Shown: piece after piece, positions 23,801 to 51,774 of the stretch
Layout of the letters: each line of letters starts with the position of its first letter
How positions within the stretch are numbered: the stretch's first letter is position 1
NCBI RefSeq assembly: GCF_040359615.1
Contig: NZ_CP132942.1
Span: 4,774,001 to 4,838,000 of the forward strand
From: Tunturibacter psychrotolerans
Lineage (GTDB): Bacteria > Acidobacteriota > Terriglobia > Terriglobales > Acidobacteriaceae
Direction of reading: 5' to 3'
DNA: 64,000 bases
Position numbers and translations under genes: made by a program
Notes under the pieces: generated by a model
Seen by the model: the letters and a program-made list of their open reading frames with translations, nothing else
What the model was told of the DNA's origin: nothing
Database searches by the model: none

Positions 23801-24631
23801 CTAGGCCGCCCGGTACCGTCCGAGTACCTTCACCATTCGGGAATGTTCGCGCAACGCACCCAAAGCGGCTTCGGCCTCCGCCATCGAATCAAACCTCACA
23901 TCGACATAGAAAACGTACTCCCAAGGGCTCCCCGGCACCGGCCTGGATTCAATCTTCGTCAGGTCCACCCCGGCCTCCGCCAGTCGCTGCAGAGCAGCCA
24001 CCAGGGTTCCAGGACGATTCTCAATGGCGAACGCCAAACTCATCTTGTTCTTGCGTGCCACGTCCGCCTCGGCCAAAGTCGTTCCGTCGGCCCGCACCAG
24101 GTAAAACCTCGTGTAGTTCTCTGCGTGATCCTCGACGCCGGCTACGACCACCTCAGCACCGTACTCCGTGGCCGCAAGCATCGGAGCGATTCCCGCCACA
24201 TCACGCAGACCCGCCTCCATAACGTGCTTCACACTTCCCGCAGTGTCATAAAAGGGAATCACCTCCAACTCAGGATGCGAGGCCAGAAATCTCCGGCATT
24301 GTGACAACGCCACTGGATGGGACATCACTCTCCTCACCTCTTTAAACTTCACGCCAGGCATTGCGATCACGTTGTGACGAATCCGCAGTAAGCTCTCTCT
24401 TACAATCTGCACCGGCGAATCCAGTAGCAGATCGTAGTGTTCGGCAACCGACCCATGCAAACTGTTCTCGATCGGCAGCACCGCCGCATCGACCTCCCCT
24501 GCGACTACCTTCCCCAGCACCTGTAGCGATAGGGTGCATGCGATGATCTCTAAATCCGCTGGGTTGCCCAGCATCTCGACGGTCGCCATGTGGCTATTCG
24601 AGCCCAGCTCCCCCTGAATCGCCACCTTCAA
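23801..24631 (-). CDS. pheA: Prephenate dehydratase
   Basis: Converts prephenate to phenylpyruvate, the committed step of phenylalanine synthesis. It is a monofunctional enzyme with no chorismate mutase domain. The catalytic domain runs from KVAIQGELGSNSHMA through PIENSLHGSVAEHYDLL to ENYTRFYLV. From about residue 195 an ACT regulatory domain follows (MSLAFAIENRPGTLVAALQ and KIESRPVPGSPWEYVFYVD), the site of Phe feedback inhibition in this family. The TTG at 24631 gives the usual MKVAIQG start with GAGG upstream; a GTG three codons earlier is an alternative. No attenuator is seen before it. Confidence 0.94.
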   Translation of the reverse strand: MKVAIQGELGSNSHMATVEMLGNPADLEIIACTLSLQVLGKVVAGEVDAAVLPIENSLHGSVAEHYDLLLDSPVQIVRESLLRIRHNVIAMPGVKFKEVRRVMSHPVALSQCRRFLASHPELEVIPFYDTAGSVKHVMEAGLRDVAGIAPMLAATEYGAEVVVAGVEDHAENYTRFYLVRADGTTLAEADVARKNKMSLAFAIENRPGTLVAALQRLAEAGVDLTKIESRPVPGSPWEYVFYVDVRFDSMAEAEAALGALREHSRMVKVLGRYRAA

Positions 24632-24792
24632 TCCAACCACCTCGCGTATCCGTATCTGCTCGATCCATATTTTATTCCCTTTGGCAACCCCCTCGACGAA
24701 CCCGGCAACTTACCACAAGAAGGATCTGAAATTTGTGAATGCCATCACAGGCGAACCGGAGAATATAGCCGGCAATCGTCTAGGAGAACGAA

Positions 24793-45207: not shown

Positions 45208-45867
45208 ATGCAGGAAATTGTGATTGGCCGCAGACAGAAGATTGACCTGGAAACTTGGGAGCGACGCGCGAGTTTTCAGTTCTTCAAGGGTTTCACCGAG
45301 CCCTATCACGGCGTCTGTCTCCGCGTTGACTGCACGGAGACTTACCGTTACGCCAAGCAGCATCAACTGTCAGTCTTTTTGTCACTGCTGCATCGCTCGC
45401 TTGTCGCTGCGCACCAAGTTGAGAACTTCAAGACGCGCATTGTTGGCGGCGACGTCTGGAGCTATGAACTGATCAATGGCGGAAGCGCTGTGGGACGCGA
45501 GAATGGCACCATTGGCTTGGGACACTATCAGTTCCGACCGCGAATCGATGAGTTCGTGCGGGAGGCAGCTATCGAACTCGACCGGGTGCGGCAGAGAGAT
45601 GACATCGAGCGCTATCCGGAGGCGAACCTGATCCGTTATTCGGTGCTTCCCTGGTTCGACTTCACATCCATTTCGCACGCTCGCGACTTCTCCCACGAAG
45701 ACTCCGCGCCCCGCATCACATTCGGCAAAATTACTGAGGCGGGTGGCCGCTACACTATGCCCGTATCGATCCATGTGCACCACGCTCTGGCGGATGGCCT
45801 GCATGTGGCGCAGTTCGTGGAGAAGTTTCAAGGTTGCCTGGATGCTCCTGATTCCAAATCTTCGTAG
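45208..45867 (+). CDS. Chloramphenicol acetyltransferase-like protein
   Basis: A 219-residue protein with the fold and length of type A chloramphenicol acetyltransferases, trimeric enzymes that move acetyl from acetyl-CoA to the antibiotic. The active-site motif near the C-terminus is VHHALADGLHVAQF, keeping the catalytic His and the structural Asp-Gly. The N-terminal RRASFQFFKGFTEPYHGVC and PWFDFTSISHARDF also match. True chloramphenicol activity is not proven; some chromosomal relatives have other substrates. It sits inside the inverted segment between two broken genes, so it has been carried along with the rearrangement. Confidence 0.85.
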   Translation: MQEIVIGRRQKIDLETWERRASFQFFKGFTEPYHGVCLRVDCTETYRYAKQHQLSVFLSLLHRSLVAAHQVENFKTRIVGGDVWSYELINGGSAVGRENGTIGLGHYQFRPRIDEFVREAAIELDRVRQRDDIERYPEANLIRYSVLPWFDFTSISHARDFSHEDSAPRITFGKITEAGGRYTMPVSIHVHHALADGLHVAQFVEKFQGCLDAPDSKSS

Positions 45868-46940: not shown

Positions 46941-47960
46941 CTATGCACCTATCTGCTGCTCGCGCTCTACGGAAGCAACTTGCTGGCCGATGGTGTGAAT
47001 GAGGGCTGTGGGTGCGCCGTCGGTACGGATTAGAAACTGGGTGTAGTTCCACATCGCCATGGTGAATGGGACAAAGATCTCGGGAATTATTCGATTGCAG
47101 AGGCCGTCGTCGAGTTTGTCGTCGATGACACCTACGATCTGAATCCAGCCGTCCGCTCCCGGCGCGCAGGTCACAGATGTAGGTGGAGTTTTTAGAACTA
47201 CCATCTGAATGGAGTGGCCGATTGCATCGCCTTTCGGGAAGTACTTGTGCGCGAAGGCTCGGCAGGAGTGATGGGCTTTGGCCAGTCGGGCTTGCGCGGC
47301 GGGAGGAGCGGCCGTCTTGAGAAACTCGTGGAGGGGCTGGATCTTGTACTGCGACTGGATCTTCTTCACGTTGACGAGGTCAGCAGGATTGAACAGCTGA
47401 GTGCGGCCCACAACACTGATGAACTCCGTCTCGGCGGTGAAGGTCTTGGTGATGTTCTTCGGCGCTTCGCCCTTCCACTCGGGTCCGGCGATGAGATAGA
47501 TTCCCCCGTTGTTGCCGGTGGTGCGGCTGCCGATGTAGGCGAAGTTGAAGGTGTAAAGGTCCATCAACTGAAAGACGAAGTAGCGATTCTTCTCCATCTT
47601 TGGAACGGTGATGACGGCTGGCGCGGCGCGGAGGTCAAGACCGGCGAAAGAGTAAGGAGTGTCGGAGTTGGGCGTAACGAAGGCTGTGTCGGCAGGCGTG
47701 AAGACCCGAGCAATATTAAGGATGGAATCGAAGGGGCCCATGTACTGGTGGCCACCCTTGTCGATGGAGTATGCGTACATTGTCTTGTACTGTGCGACCA
47801 TCGGCACACCGTAGATGTAGGCCTCTTTTGCAATCGATTGCGCTTCGGAGAGCGAAAGACCAGGTTCTGCGGGCTTCTTCGTGGTTTCGCACCCAACGGT
47901 CAACAAGATGCACATGGCAAGGCCGGCCAAAAATGATGTGCGGGTAACAGCTAAGCTCAC
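46941..47960 (-). pseudogene. Chimeric pseudogene: DUF1254 N-terminus joined to ADOP permease middle
   Basis: An open frame of 339 codons. The first 220 residues are a lipoprotein-like signal (TVGCETTKK) and the N-terminal DUF1254 domain (EAYIYGVPMVAQYKTMYAY, FTPADTAFVTPNSDTPYSF, QLMDLYTFNFAYIG). From about residue 230 the sequence is the periplasmic part of an FtsX/MacB permease (FAHKYFPKGDAIGHSI, GADGWIQIVGVIDDKLDDGL, PEIFVPFTMAMWNYTQFLI). It ends at a TAG, after which permease sequence continues in frame. The junction is near 47250-47300. The partner fragments of both genes are in the plus-strand chimera at 44402. Confidence 0.8.
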
Positions 47961-48185
47961 GGACTACTCCTCTGAAGCTTAAGTGATTACCCAATAGAGT
48001 AGCGGGATTTTTAGTAGAAACAGAGTTTCGGCAAATGACGCTTCCGCGATGAGGTGCTGCGCCGAGTTTTTTCATGGGTATAGCCAACCCGAGTCAATGA
48101 GCGCATTGGCCTGTTAGCGTGAGCTGAGAACGTCCGACGCGCAGTGCAGAGCCCCGCGTTTTCTGCTAGTGACCGTTACAACCCC

Positions 48186-48215
48186 TTGCAATCCTCCAAA
48201 CCCCCGGTGTATCGT
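48186..48215 (+). promoter_or_regulatory. Candidate promoter of the aroK leader
   Basis: TTGCAA (48186-48191) and TATCGT (48210-48215) are separated by 18 bases and resemble a housekeeping promoter. Transcription would begin around 48222-48225, practically at the ATG of the leader peptide, so the leader may be translated from a leaderless transcript. Confidence 0.5.
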
Positions 48216-48224
48216 CTTACCAGC

Positions 48225-48320
48225 ATGTCGAGCCGCTTCCAGTTCGCTTTTTTTACCTGCTCCTATTGGCGCAACCCTGCGGCCAGTGGAGTCCTCGCAT
48301 GCATCTCTGAAAAAACCTAA
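48225..48320 (+). CDS. Aromatic-rich leader peptide of aroK
   Basis: A 31-codon frame encoding MSSRFQFAFFTCSYW followed by 16 further residues and TAA. Six of residues 5-15 are aromatic: four Phe, one Tyr and one Trp, the three end products of the shikimate pathway. No good ribosome site precedes it, but the predicted transcription start coincides with the ATG. The frame ends 26 bases before a strong terminator hairpin and 97 bases before aroK. The composition and position are those of an attenuator leader peptide. Confidence 0.6.
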   Translation: MSSRFQFAFFTCSYWRNPAASGVLACISEKT

Positions 48321-48382
48321 AAACTTCAGAGTCTTCGACCTTCCCGAGCCGCAACCCACACCAGGTTGCGGCTCTTTCGTTT
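48270..48382 (+). promoter_or_regulatory. Transcription attenuator before aroK
   Basis: Four mutually exclusive segments can be drawn. Segment 1 is CGCA (48270-48273), immediately after the Trp codon. Segment 2 is TGCGGC (48278-48283). Segment 3 is the left terminator arm containing GCCGCA (48348-48353), and segment 4 is the right arm. 1:2 and 3:4 are compatible; 2:3 forms an antiterminator. A small hairpin CTCTGA/TCAGAG (48305-48310, 48326-48331) lies between. A ribosome stalled on the Tyr-Trp codons would cover segment 1 and free segment 2. Confidence 0.55.
48346..48382 (+). terminator. Attenuator terminator hairpin
   Basis: GAGCCGCAACC (48346-48356) pairs perfectly with GGTTGCGGCTC (48364-48374) around a 7-base loop, followed by TTTCGTTTT. 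It stands upstream of aroK rather than after a gene, so it would end transcription early unless prevented. Confidence 0.85.
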
Positions 48383-48416
48383 TCTGCAACGTTTACAGGC
48401 ACACTAAGGAGAGGCA

Positions 48417-49022
48417 ATGACGTCCACCGAACCCCAAACCGAATCCCCAACCGAATCCAAGCCCCAAATCGAAACCATGACCGAAGCCCCAACCCACCTC
48501 AAACGTCTCGTCCTCACCGGCTTCATGGGAGCGGGCAAGTCCACCATCGGCCGCCTCCTCGCCGCCCGCATCGGCTGGAACTTCCTCGATCTCGACGCCC
48601 ACCTCGAGTCCCGCACCAACGCCACCATCCCCCAGCTCTTTGAGCAGCACGGCGAAGCCCGTTTCCGCCGCCTCGAGTCCACCGCCCTCGCCTCTGCTCT
48701 CGGCTACAGCAACATCGTCCTCGCACTCGGCGGCGGAACCCCCGAAGACCTCACCAATCGCCTCCTCCTCGAGCAGACCCCCGACACGTTCACCATCTTC
48801 CTCGACGCACACTTCCCCACGCTCTACGACCGCTGCATGCTCCAGGATCTCGGTGATCCAGCCCTCGCCCGGCCCGTCCTCAGAGACCCCGCCGCCGCCC
48901 AACTCCGCTTCGAGCGCCGCCACCCCCTCTACCGCCGGATGGCCGGCCTCACCATCCCCACCTCCGACCAGAGCCCCGCCCAGACCGTCGACGCTCTGCT
49001 CCTGGCCTTGGCAAAAAAATGA
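48417..49022 (+). CDS. aroK: Shikimate kinase
   Basis: Phosphorylates shikimate with ATP in the common aromatic pathway leading to Phe, Tyr and Trp. The 201-residue protein has an N-terminal extension of about 28 residues, then LVLTGFMGAGKSTIGRLLA (Walker A), FLDLDAHLESRTNATIPQLF with the shikimate-binding Asp, EARFRRLESTAL with the Arg, and VLALGGGTPED. The lid Arg near ALARPVLRD is in place. AAGGAG precedes the ATG. It is preceded by an attenuator with an aromatic leader peptide, so its expression probably falls when aromatic aminoacyl-tRNAs are plentiful. Confidence 0.94.
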   Translation: MTSTEPQTESPTESKPQIETMTEAPTHLKRLVLTGFMGAGKSTIGRLLAARIGWNFLDLDAHLESRTNATIPQLFEQHGEARFRRLESTALASALGYSNIVLALGGGTPEDLTNRLLLEQTPDTFTIFLDAHFPTLYDRCMLQDLGDPALARPVLRDPAAAQLRFERRHPLYRRMAGLTIPTSDQSPAQTVDALLLALAKK

Positions 49023-49198: not shown

Positions 49199-50251
49199 CT
49201 GACCAACTCCGCGCCAGAAGACCTCACCCCTTACGAGAAGCGAACCCGCACCGAAGTTCGCGGCAACATCCTCTTCATCTTCGCCATCATCCTTCTGCTC
49301 GCACTCGCCTGGACCCTCCAAAAAGAGCTCCTGATCCTCTACGTCAGCGCGCTCTTTGCCGTCGTTCTCATGCCCGCGGTCACCCAAATACGGCAGTGGA
49401 AGATCCGCAACTACCGCCCCTCCCGCGGCATCGCTATCGTCATCCTGATCGCGGCTGTCGCAGCCGTCCTCGCCCTCTTCTTCACCACCGGCCTGCCGCC
49501 CGTCCTCAGCGACCTTCGCAACTTCTCCAACGAACTCCCCCAGCGCATTCCCGAGATCGTCACCCGCATCAAGAAGTTCCCCCTGGCCGACAAGTTCGGC
49601 ATCGACTCCTTCGCTCAGCGCGCAGCCGGCTACTTTGACGCCACCGCCGGCTACATCTTCACCTCGCTCCCCCTCTGGCTCTCCCACGTCTTCGACATCC
49701 TCACCGCCGCCTTCCTCTGCGTCTACTTCATGCTCGAAGGCGAGCACGCCTACGACTTCTTCCTCTCTCTCTTCCCCGGCACCCAGCGCAACCGCCTCAA
49801 CAACACCCTCAAAAAGGCCGAGCGCAAGATCAGCAAGTGGCTCCTCGGCCAGGGTCTCCTCATGCTCGTCCTCGGAGTCTCCAGCACCATCGTCTTCGGC
49901 CTCCTGCACGTGCGCTACTTCCTCCTCCTCGGCTTCCTCATGGGTCTCTTCAACATCATCCCCATCGCCGGCGGAGTCATCACCATCGTCATCGCCGCAG
50001 GTGTCGCCGCCCTCGACTCGTGGACCAAGATGGCCGGCGTCCTCATCTTCTACGCCATCTACATCAACGTCGAAAACGCCATCCTCACCCCTCGAATCAT
50101 GCGCTCCAGCGTCAATCTCATGGGACTCACCGTACTCGTCGCCCTGCTTTTAGGAACCGCCCTCGCAGGCATCGTCGGCGCCCTCGTCTCCGTCCCCACC
50201 GCCGCTCTCATCACTGTCTTTCTGGAGGAGTACGCCGTCCACAAGGACTGA
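49199..50251 (+). CDS. AI-2E/PerM family membrane transporter
   Basis: A 350-residue transporter of the AI-2 exporter-like (PerM) family, with seven to eight membrane helices. The conserved C-terminal part reads LMGLFNIIPIAGGVITIVIAAG and NVENAILTPRIMRSSVNLMG. The N-terminal helix (NILFIFAIILLLALAWTLQK) lies upstream of the first ATG, so the start must be earlier. The only candidate with a ribosome site is the CTG at 49199, 7 bases after AGGAG. The substrate is unknown; small molecules or ions are suggested for relatives. Confidence 0.85.
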   Translation: MTNSAPEDLTPYEKRTRTEVRGNILFIFAIILLLALAWTLQKELLILYVSALFAVVLMPAVTQIRQWKIRNYRPSRGIAIVILIAAVAAVLALFFTTGLPPVLSDLRNFSNELPQRIPEIVTRIKKFPLADKFGIDSFAQRAAGYFDATAGYIFTSLPLWLSHVFDILTAAFLCVYFMLEGEHAYDFFLSLFPGTQRNRLNNTLKKAERKISKWLLGQGLLMLVLGVSSTIVFGLLHVRYFLLLGFLMGLFNIIPIAGGVITIVIAAGVAALDSWTKMAGVLIFYAIYINVENAILTPRIMRSSVNLMGLTVLVALLLGTALAGIVGALVSVPTAALITVFLEEYAVHKD

Positions 50252-50392
50252 CTCACCCCATCCCTACAACTCTTGTGGTACAAACCCTGCATTCCCACCT
50301 CAGTCAGCGCTTACCGAAACCGCATCTAGGTGATTACGTAAACTTCTGGCTCTTTTAACCTTCCTGAAAACCAATTACCCTTGCTATTCTCA

Positions 50393-50998
50393 ATGCCAGT
50401 GTCCGACCTCAAGTTTGCCCAACCCGCTCGAAGCAACCTGCTGGCACCGGTCCTGTTGGCGTTTTTGATCCTGGGCATCACCCTTGCCCTGGCCGTCCGC
50501 TTCACGCCGCACAAAACCGCGGATCTGGACATCGTGCACACCGCCATCTATCCCGCCCACACCGTCTTCAAAGGTGAATCCATCCTCGTTGGCCACGACC
50601 AGGCCCGCGACGACCTTTACGTCCTCACCACTCTTCGCGTCACCGACGGTCTGCGTCTCCCCCTCTTCCTCAAGGACTTCACCGCCACTCTCACCACCGG
50701 CGACGGCCAGGAGATCACCACCAGCGCCGTCGAAAAAGACGACATCGCCAGCGTCTACTCCGCCTTTCCCGCCCTCAAGCCTCTCGCCTCCGAACCCCTG
50801 CTCCGCGAGACCATGATTACCCCCGGCCAGTCCGTCCAGGGCATGATCCTCCTCCACTTCCCCGTCACCCAGGGCGTATGGGATCACCGCCGCACCGCTG
50901 TCCTCAACGTCGACCTCTACCACCAGGGCCAGCAGGGCGTCATGATCAGCCGCGCCAGCGAAGCGATCCCCAACTCCAACTCAAAGCTCGCCAACTAA
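50393..50998 (+). CDS. Hypothetical membrane-anchored protein
   Basis: A 201-residue protein with one N-terminal membrane helix (LLAPVLLAFLILGITLALAV) and a periplasmic domain. The soluble part is beta-rich, with repeats like YVLTTLRVTDGLRLPLFLKD and GMILLHFPVTQGVWDHR. The pattern resembles small extracytoplasmic Ig-like domains. It lies 50 bases before rsmE on the same strand. No ribosome site is clear before the ATG. I cannot name a function. Confidence 0.68.
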   Translation: MPVSDLKFAQPARSNLLAPVLLAFLILGITLALAVRFTPHKTADLDIVHTAIYPAHTVFKGESILVGHDQARDDLYVLTTLRVTDGLRLPLFLKDFTATLTTGDGQEITTSAVEKDDIASVYSAFPALKPLASEPLLRETMITPGQSVQGMILLHFPVTQGVWDHRRTAVLNVDLYHQGQQGVMISRASEAIPNSNSKLAN

Positions 50999-51048
50999 CC
51001 TCGAGCGAAGCGCAGCCCGACCGCAATCCAAAACCGTAAACTGTACTC

Positions 51049-51774
51049 ATGACCCGCCGTCGCTGGATCGCCGACCGTTGGACCGCCACCACCGCATCTC
51101 TCACCGGCGACCAGGCCGCCCACCTTGCCCGCGTCCTCCGCGCCGAACCCGGCCAGGTCTACGACGTCGTCTCCAACGGCTTCCTCCACCGCGCCGAGAT
51201 CCTGAGCGTCTCCGAAGCCGAAGTCCTCTTCACCCTCCACGAAGAGCTCGAATCCGACGCCGCCCTCCCCCTCCATCTCCTCCTCGCCGTCTTCAAGTTC
51301 GACCACATGGAGTGGGCCATCGAAAAAGCCACCGAACTAGGCATCGCTCGCATCACTCCCATCCTCGCCCGCCGCACCGAAAAGCACCTCGCCCAATCCG
51401 CGCTCAAGCGTTCCGAACGCTGGCGCCGCATCGCCCTCGAAGCCAGTAAACAATCCCGCCGCACTGACATCCCCAATATCGCCGACCCCATCCCCCTCAA
51501 GCAGGCCCTCGCCGAAGAAAAATCCCCCACCCGCATTCTCCTCAGCGAAACCGAGCAGGCCCTCACCCTGACCGCCGCCCTCAAAGCCGCAACCTCATCG
51601 CAACAAGAAACTGATACCGCCCTGGCCATAGGCCCCGAAGGCGGCTGGACCCCCGAAGAGATGTCCCTCTTCACCGAGCATCGATGGCAGCCCGTCACCC
51701 TCGGCCCGCGCATCCTTCGCGCCGAAACCGCCGCCATCGCCGCCATCGCCATCGCCTCCACCCACCTCATCTGA
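51049..51774 (+). CDS. rsmE: 16S rRNA m3U1498 methyltransferase RsmE
   Basis: A 241-residue SPOUT-class methyltransferase that modifies U1498 of 16S rRNA on the assembled 30S subunit. The N-terminal PUA-like domain (GDQAAHLARVLRAEPGQVYDVV) is followed by the knot domain with SAM-binding motifs ALAIGPEGGWTPEEM and VTLGPRILRAETAAIAAI. KATELGIARITPILARRTEK and WRRIALEASKQSRR are further family marks. The length is normal. It stands after the membrane protein gene with a gap of 50 bases. It is a housekeeping gene. Confidence 0.95.
   Translation: MTRRRWIADRWTATTASLTGDQAAHLARVLRAEPGQVYDVVSNGFLHRAEILSVSEAEVLFTLHEELESDAALPLHLLLAVFKFDHMEWAIEKATELGIARITPILARRTEKHLAQSALKRSERWRRIALEASKQSRRTDIPNIADPIPLKQALAEEKSPTRILLSETEQALTLTAALKAATSSQQETDTALAIGPEGGWTPEEMSLFTEHRWQPVTLGPRILRAETAAIAAIAIASTHLI

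Follow-up and report, generated by a model that had tools for sequence, protein, structure and literature searches.

A putative ribosome-mediated attenuator in front of the shikimate kinase gene aroK, and related leaders before other aromatic-pathway genes of Acidobacteria

The shikimate kinase gene aroK of Tunturibacter psychrotolerans is preceded by a short open reading frame in which aromatic codons abound, by RNA segments able to pair in alternative ways and by a terminator, and comparison of these sequences with those of relatives indicates that the gene is very probably controlled by a classical ribosome-mediated transcription attenuator. Under such control, the aromatic pathway would probably be turned up when ribosomes lack those amino acids. 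With moderate confidence, we further propose that the aromatic pathway of a good part of the sampled Acidobacteria is governed by one attenuator family whose members share a common ancestor. In this view, aroK, a gene of the common trunk, would have received a copy of the CCGC-GCGG-CCGC-GCGG switch of the trpBA operon, and this switch would also serve in front of genes for DAHP synthase and chorismate mutase/prephenate dehydratase; its control codons would have been retuned to the branch, Trp being kept for trpBA and aroK and dropped in most leaders of the Phe/Tyr branch. Coordinates given below are those of the window, the stretch of 64,000 nucleotides that was analyzed as a whole, and refer to its plus strand unless stated otherwise.

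The leader locus

The leader frame occupies 48225-48320, from an ATG at 48225 to a stop codon at 48318-48320, and encodes a peptide that opens with MSSRFQFAFFTCSYW and reads MSSRFQFAFFTCSYWRNPAASGVLACISEKT. Direct reading bore out both the coordinates and the counts of the original prediction, which had described a frame of 31 codons with four Phe, one Tyr and one Trp within eleven residues (residues 5-15). The stop codon is separated by 25 nt from a stem whose left arm (GAGCCGCAACC, 48346-48356) and right arm (GGTTGCGGCTC, 48364-48374) pair at 11 of 11 positions around a 7-nt loop and are followed by the T-rich tract TTTCGTTTTC (48375-48384). Both arms were recognized by their pairing and by a generic terminator scan, which also picked out the tract. 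As had been announced, this perfect 11-bp terminator with its T-tract is followed by aroK (48417-49022, 201 aa), which was identified by the Pfam family SKI (PF01202, E 9.5e-36); in NCBIfam, the product matched mostly shikimate kinase models, every one under its cut-off. A ribosome-binding site for aroK, AAGGAGAG, was located by eye at 48406-48413, outside the terminator hairpin. The locus therefore presents a predicted terminator hairpin and T-tract ahead of a structural gene, as befits an attenuator.

The two arms of the terminator constitute segments 3 and 4 of a putative four-segment switch. Segment 2 (TGCGGCCAGTGGAG, 48278-48291) takes part in two alternative helices, since its TGCGGC (48278-48283) is complementary to GCCGCA (48348-48353) in segment 3 (helix 2:3), and its GCCAGTGGAG serves the pairing with segment 1 (helix 1:2). 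For these three segments the earlier description was accurate. Segment 1 had been placed at CGCA (48270-48273), an assignment that had to be abandoned: this tetranucleotide is not the conserved segment and the window pairs CTCC(T)ATTGGC with GCCAGTGGAG, so that the actual segment 1 is CTCCTATTGGC (48260-48270), made of Ser-Tyr-Trp codons and thus ending in Tyr-Trp. It pairs with 48282-48291 in the minimum-energy fold, and CCGCTAYTGG is its counterpart in many relatives. Between segments 2 and 3, the fold contains a spacer hairpin (CTCTGAA/TTCAGAG, 48305-48331), of which similar arms were seen by eye in L001-L008 of the alignment of aroK leaders (A2). Just 5' of the terminator, the block CTTCGACCTTCCC (48333-48345) is near-identical in aroK leaders of the same genus and lies outside the four segments.

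A promoter for the leader is predicted from a -35 element, TTGCAA (48186-48191), and a -10 element, TATCGT (48210-48215), spaced by 18 nt and leaving 9 nt to the leader ATG. A generic promoter scan called no promoter here, this pair scoring under its threshold. The pattern TTG-N16-19-TANNNT is found 5' of the leader ATG in 21 of 21 aroK leaders versus 1.1% of shuffles, and in all 21 the end of the -10 element is 7-11 nt away from the ATG. To judge by the position of the -10 element, transcription is expected to start near 48222. A start about 7 nt past this element leaves hardly any untranslated leader, and the leader mRNA is therefore probably leaderless or nearly so.

Conservation and coding evidence

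The aroK gene was sought in 200 genomes of the family and found in 195, and the 30 best of these loci were examined. The 21 closest of them (L001-L021, own genome included) each possess an aromatic leader together with a terminator, and the leader frame is kept in every case; the original prediction had proposed to look for the aromatic-rich frame in relatives, and this check turned out in its favor. The remaining nine loci (L022-L030) have neither aromatic leader nor terminator. Five of these leaderless loci (L023, L025, L027, L028 and L030) have, just 5' of aroK, a short frame containing a CxxC motif and a ALVRDLEYIAQQAKLLLPIHDPSPAVW-like sequence, which suggests that the leader may go with an aroK heading its own transcript.

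The coding nature of the frame was assessed on the alignment of the 21 aroK leaders (A2). Gaps whose length is not a multiple of three number zero before segment 2 and 69 after it. None of the 21 rows has a stop in the leader frame, versus 16 and 5 rows in the other two frames, and aromatic residues make up 32.8% of the leader frame against 5.6% and 10.1% of the others. At least four aromatics within 12 residues occur in all 21 leader regions, in 3.9% of shuffles and at none of the nine leaderless loci. Differences show no excess at third positions of the leader codons (0.366, 0.453 and 0.367 for the three positions), which we ascribe to the RNA helices formed by the same bases. Aromatic content is kept while the order of residues shifts, F-x-Y-R-Y-W being found in many leaders and FWYRYCFTG in L011, L017 and L018. 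A short leader frame with codons for the amino acids produced by the pathway, as expected of an attenuator, can thus be recognized at 21 of 21 aroK loci.

These data bear on a trivial explanation of the locus, namely that the hairpin simply terminates a transcription unit lying upstream and that the frame arose by chance. Terminators are indeed common and a generic scan is enough to detect this stem. However, the nearest upstream gene, a DUF1254 gene identified by Pfam (46941-47960), is carried by the minus strand, so that the terminator does not belong to it; the shuffle frequency given above stands against 21 of 21 loci, and related elements precede trpB, DAHP synthase and chorismate mutase/prephenate dehydratase genes. 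We regard this explanation as scarcely credible. A chance frame, the terminator of another gene and a known Rfam element were each rejected on the basis of shuffles, comparative data and Rfam searches.

A more serious competitor is an action in trans of the leader small protein or of the terminated small RNA, cis attenuation being then secondary. A short RNA with an intact frame would in fact be released, and peTrpL and rnTrpL of Sinorhizobium offer a precedent in the available part of the source (PMC7298713); moreover, the block preceding the terminator is strongly conserved in same-genus leaders and falls outside the assigned roles. Yet past segment 2 the peptide varies in frame and sequence between species, as illustrated by AASGVLACISEKT and AATRNPRMTL and by the 69 non-triplet gaps, and the aromatic codons, the stem and the terminator explain the remaining conservation. 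This alternative appears unlikely, and attenuation in cis by a translating ribosome remains the preferred reading.

RNA folding and covariation

The leader region folds with a z-score of -3.5, and none of 200 shuffles was equally low. Across the leaders, the core consists of four alternating blocks, segment 1 CCGC(TACTGG), segment 2 (CCAGTA)GCGG, segment 3 (GAG)CCGC and segment 4 GCGG(CTC), the first of which corresponds in most relatives to Arg-Tyr-Trp codons. Covariation was evaluated on alignment A5, for which 51 of 63 leaders were chosen, the 63 being the 21 aroK leaders and 42 leaders of the wider family presented below; L002, L012, L017, L070, L079, L090, L091, L092, L096, L097, L098 and L102 were left out. 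Across helices 1:2 and 3:4, 88.0% of the cells are paired, a proportion falling to 31-50% when the partners are slid by 1-3 columns. Changes on both sides of a pair affect 42 cells versus 11.4 in shuffles, and the covariation score amounts to 0.223 versus 0.159; neither value was reached in 500 shuffles. Two weaker measures were less decisive, with 8 pairs showing a both-side change versus 5.5 (27 of 500 shuffles as high) and 27 further pair types versus 24.4 (34 of 500).

Individually, the terminator helix displays both-side changes at 6 of its 11 pairs and helix 1:2 at 2 of 10 pairs. The third base of the Tyr codon preceding Trp and its segment-2 partner form C-G in 25 of the 51 leaders and U-A in 9, and are unpaired in 17. 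Segment 1, which overlaps the control codons, is therefore predicted to pair with segment 2 as in known attenuators, in the window by folding only. A single common 1:2 register for all leaders was ruled out by the genus of the window, where the register is shifted: the window's own 1:2, in which CTCC(T)ATTGGC faces segment 2, fits the consensus register at 3 of 10 positions.

The core of the alternative helix 2:3, GCGGC/GCCGC (5 bp), is complementary in 48 of 51 rows and hardly varies, so that covariation barely tests it. Both-side changes affect 8 cells versus 5.3 in shuffles, a value equalled or exceeded in 58 of 500, though only 2 of 500 shuffles attained the covariation score. The expectation that the pairings would co-vary among relatives was consequently borne out for 3:4, and for 1:2 as well, by compensatory changes, and found little variation to act upon in 2:3.

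Ribosome stalling and proposed mechanism

The consequence of a stall was calculated by folding the stretch of RNA that begins 13 nt past the A-site codon and closes with segment 3. For a ribosome stalled at the aromatic codon most closely preceding Trp, segments 2 and 3 are expected to form 6.0 to 8.9 pairs in 21 of 21 aroK leaders. The Trp codon itself starts 12 nt 5' of segment 2 in 18 of the 21 leaders and 24 nt in L011, L017 and L018. At a distance of 12 nt, whether a ribosome halted on this codon reaches the first base of segment 2 or stops just short of it depends on the edge assumed, and edges of 11-13 nt yield 4.9 to 8.9 calculated pairs of 2:3. With Phe at about 27 nt and Tyr at 15 nt from segment 2, the geometry would favor Tyr as the most effective stall site and make Trp a borderline one.

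In the ribosome-free RNA up to segment 3, the window also prefers 2:3, with a mean pair probability of 0.94. Among the 21 rows, 10 have a value of 0.78 or more and others are near zero, a count in which segment 2 was misplaced for L008, L012 and L013. In the species where 2:3 is favored without a ribosome, 1:2 must therefore win by kinetics or through masking by the ribosome, and the off state is not readable from equilibrium folding alone.

From these elements, the following course of events may be proposed. Transcription from the promoter at 48186-48215 would begin no more than a few bases away from the leader ATG, and the leader would be translated by a ribosome close behind RNA polymerase. 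When charged tRNA-Phe, tRNA-Tyr and tRNA-Trp are ample, this ribosome would run through the leader, segment 2 would be kept off segment 3 by ribosome masking or by helix 1:2, and the terminator 3:4 would end transcription before aroK. When these tRNAs are short, the ribosome would stall on the Phe...Tyr-Trp codons, in or just 5' of segment 1, and by covering segment 1 it would let 2:3 form, which would block the terminator and allow aroK to be transcribed. The direction of the proposed response is the usual one for biosynthetic genes.

A family of leaders before aromatic-pathway genes

Two covariance models were built, R1 from the 21 aroK leaders and R2 from 51 leaders. In the genome of the window, R1 finds two strong sites, aroK (E 2.5e-30) and G000:C1:228207-228366 (E 1.7e-13), and four further matches with E 0.27 to 8. 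The second strong site, whose leader frame reads MILQSSRISFILRYWRTIAASAE, precedes trpB and trpA, with a gene for DAHP synthase following at a greater distance. At E <=0.01, R1 matches 211 of 398 genomes of the family, belonging to 39 of 79 genera. Forty-two match loci were retained, L066-L068 and 39 picked among about 150 matches listed, with a preference for second matches and other genera; they lie before trpB (25), aroK (12), DAHP synthase (3) and chorismate mutase plus prephenate dehydratase genes (2, L088 and L094), numbers that are not frequencies since the loci were hand-picked, the class of L092 coming from tblastn alone. The attenuator foreseen before aroK is supported as regards attenuation, and the element is not particular to this gene, being found also before trpBA, DAHP synthase and chorismate mutase/prephenate dehydratase.

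In a second survey of aroK, species genomes were scanned with the aroK alignment and the best 80 of 553 loci were considered, a set that overlaps the earlier one (L149 has the coordinates of L003). R2 places a leader at 25 of these best 80 loci (L149-L171, L173 and L194), which belong to Granulicella, Edaphobacter, Terriglobus or unassigned Acidobacteria. No R2 leader match was found at 54 of the best 80, and the record of L172 provides just 196 bases 5' of aroK. Over 396 genomes of the phylum, R2 matched 42 at E <=0.001, and these are spread across 13 of 210 genera. Three other families account for seven of them, and there Pfam identifies chorismate mutase (L131, L132, L135 and L137), prephenate dehydratase (L133 and L134) and DAHP synthase (L136); their leaders include MRKSFNNFSFYFYF, MFVDDRSRFYFYFYF and MNTGRQYFYFYYFY. 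The DAHP synthase leader of L136, MNTGRQYFYFYYFYLK, is followed at about 270-360 of that locus by two consecutive terminator-like hairpins, as seen by eye. L138 and L139 have a Phe/Tyr leader ahead of a chorismate mutase gene that stands alone, after which comes lpxC in L138 (Pfam) and a frame similar by eye in L139.

The codon content of the leaders appears to go with the pathway branch of the downstream gene. A Trp codon is present in 34 of 34 aroK and 30 of 30 trpB leaders tabulated; 8 of 10 leaders of chorismate mutase/prephenate dehydratase genes lack it, as do 2 of 6 DAHP synthase leaders. This tally excludes L134, whose contig begins inside the leader, and includes nine peptide starts (seven trpB, two aroK) set by hand to the ATG adjoining the -10 element. 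The loci being related, chosen and not independent, the contrast is a pattern and not a fair test, the Fisher comparison is descriptive only, and the models, built mainly from Trp-holding leaders, are biased against finding Trp-less ones.

This pattern also weighs on the idea that the leader RNA is bound by a protein or a small molecule which would govern the terminator, the aromatic frame being a by-product. The conserved hairpins and terminator would suit such a ligand, and translation of the leader is itself a prediction. On the other hand, the indels keep the frame, freedom from stops is limited to the leader frame, the aromatic share reaches 32.8%, codon content goes with the downstream gene and Rfam families have no match at gathering score. 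With Rfam 15 at that threshold, no family matched the window or six loci of relatives, and an E-value search of 48100-48500 returned one weak match, on the other strand (E 2.4). Regulation by an RNA-binding ligand is thus very improbable, and we keep to ribosome-mediated attenuation.

Relation to known systems

Four alternating RNA segments, as in the aroK leader, make up the trp attenuator of Escherichia coli, and Rfam names leaders of the E. coli type Trp_leader and Phe_leader. Ribosome-mediated attenuation of trp, pheA and pheST has been described in this bacterium, where trpL and pheL likewise associate a leader peptide containing cognate codons with a terminator before the structural gene, according to the accessible part of the source (PMC11802643). 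Unlike these E. coli systems, the aroK leader has no Rfam match at gathering score, targets the common trunk and combines Phe, Tyr and Trp codons, its Tyr-Trp codons being segment 1 itself; its transcript is in addition predicted to be nearly leaderless.

Attenuators of shikimate-pathway genes have been reported or predicted elsewhere. In Corynebacterium glutamicum, the Phe-Tyr-Phe leader aroR attenuates aroF, encoding DAHP synthase (PMC11802643, accessible part). Compared by description, aroR resembles the aroK leader by its target in the shikimate pathway and by attenuation, which is proposed for aroK, and differs by its phylum, by its target aroF instead of aroK and by the fact that Trp is not mentioned in that part of the source. 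The original study of aroR is reportedly that of Neshat in 2014. In Acholeplasma, the uORFC-13-1 motif consists of a predicted upstream frame with at least one Phe codon adjoining a terminator before aroF (PMC8632094, in part). It resembles the aroK leader by its predicted frame and terminator and precedes the first gene of the shikimate pathway; again by description, and within the accessible text, it is a prediction only, restricted to Acholeplasma and environmental sequences, with Phe alone noted.

Actinobacterial trp attenuators, one of which precedes trpB2A of C. diphtheriae, contain conserved complementary triplets common to antiterminator and terminator, an arrangement also predicted for the present family, and the available part of their description contains no aroK attenuator (PMC1262725). 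They carry double or triple Trp codons and a triplet of the GGCC type, whereas the aroK family has CCGC/GCGG. In Sinorhizobium meliloti, the trpL leader RNA starts at the ATG of the leader frame, as far as described in the accessible part of the report (PMC7298713), and the aroK transcript, by its predicted start, would similarly begin at or near the leader ATG. As presented there, trpL serves trpE(G) and its trans roles have been shown, whereas the aroK leader is known from its sequence.

In the portion of the open-licence literature searched, we found no description of an attenuator of aroK or shikimate kinase, of an attenuator in Acidobacteria, or of the present family. The proposed mechanism is of a known kind; as far as checked, the target gene, the phylum, the leader for three amino acids and the reuse across several gene types are new. 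The Acidobacteria would gain a specific family of attenuators directed at several genes, and shikimate kinase would join the genes under such control. The family also offers a set of naturally varied leaders for relating codon content to the branch served, and it points to one leader frame and two operons of soil bacteria that form a large and little-studied group.

Neighboring genes

The window contains a prephenate dehydratase gene (23801-24640, minus strand) before which model R2 finds no leader; unlike this one, prephenate dehydratase genes of some relatives from other genera are preceded by a leader. On the plus strand, 45208-45867 encodes a protein in which Pfam recognizes a domain of the chloramphenicol-acetyltransferase type (PF00302, E 1.8e-16). 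On the 3' side of aroK, 49223-51774 contains, all on the plus strand, genes for an AI-2E family transporter and an RNA methyltransferase and, between them, a 205-aa frame that Pfam does not match.
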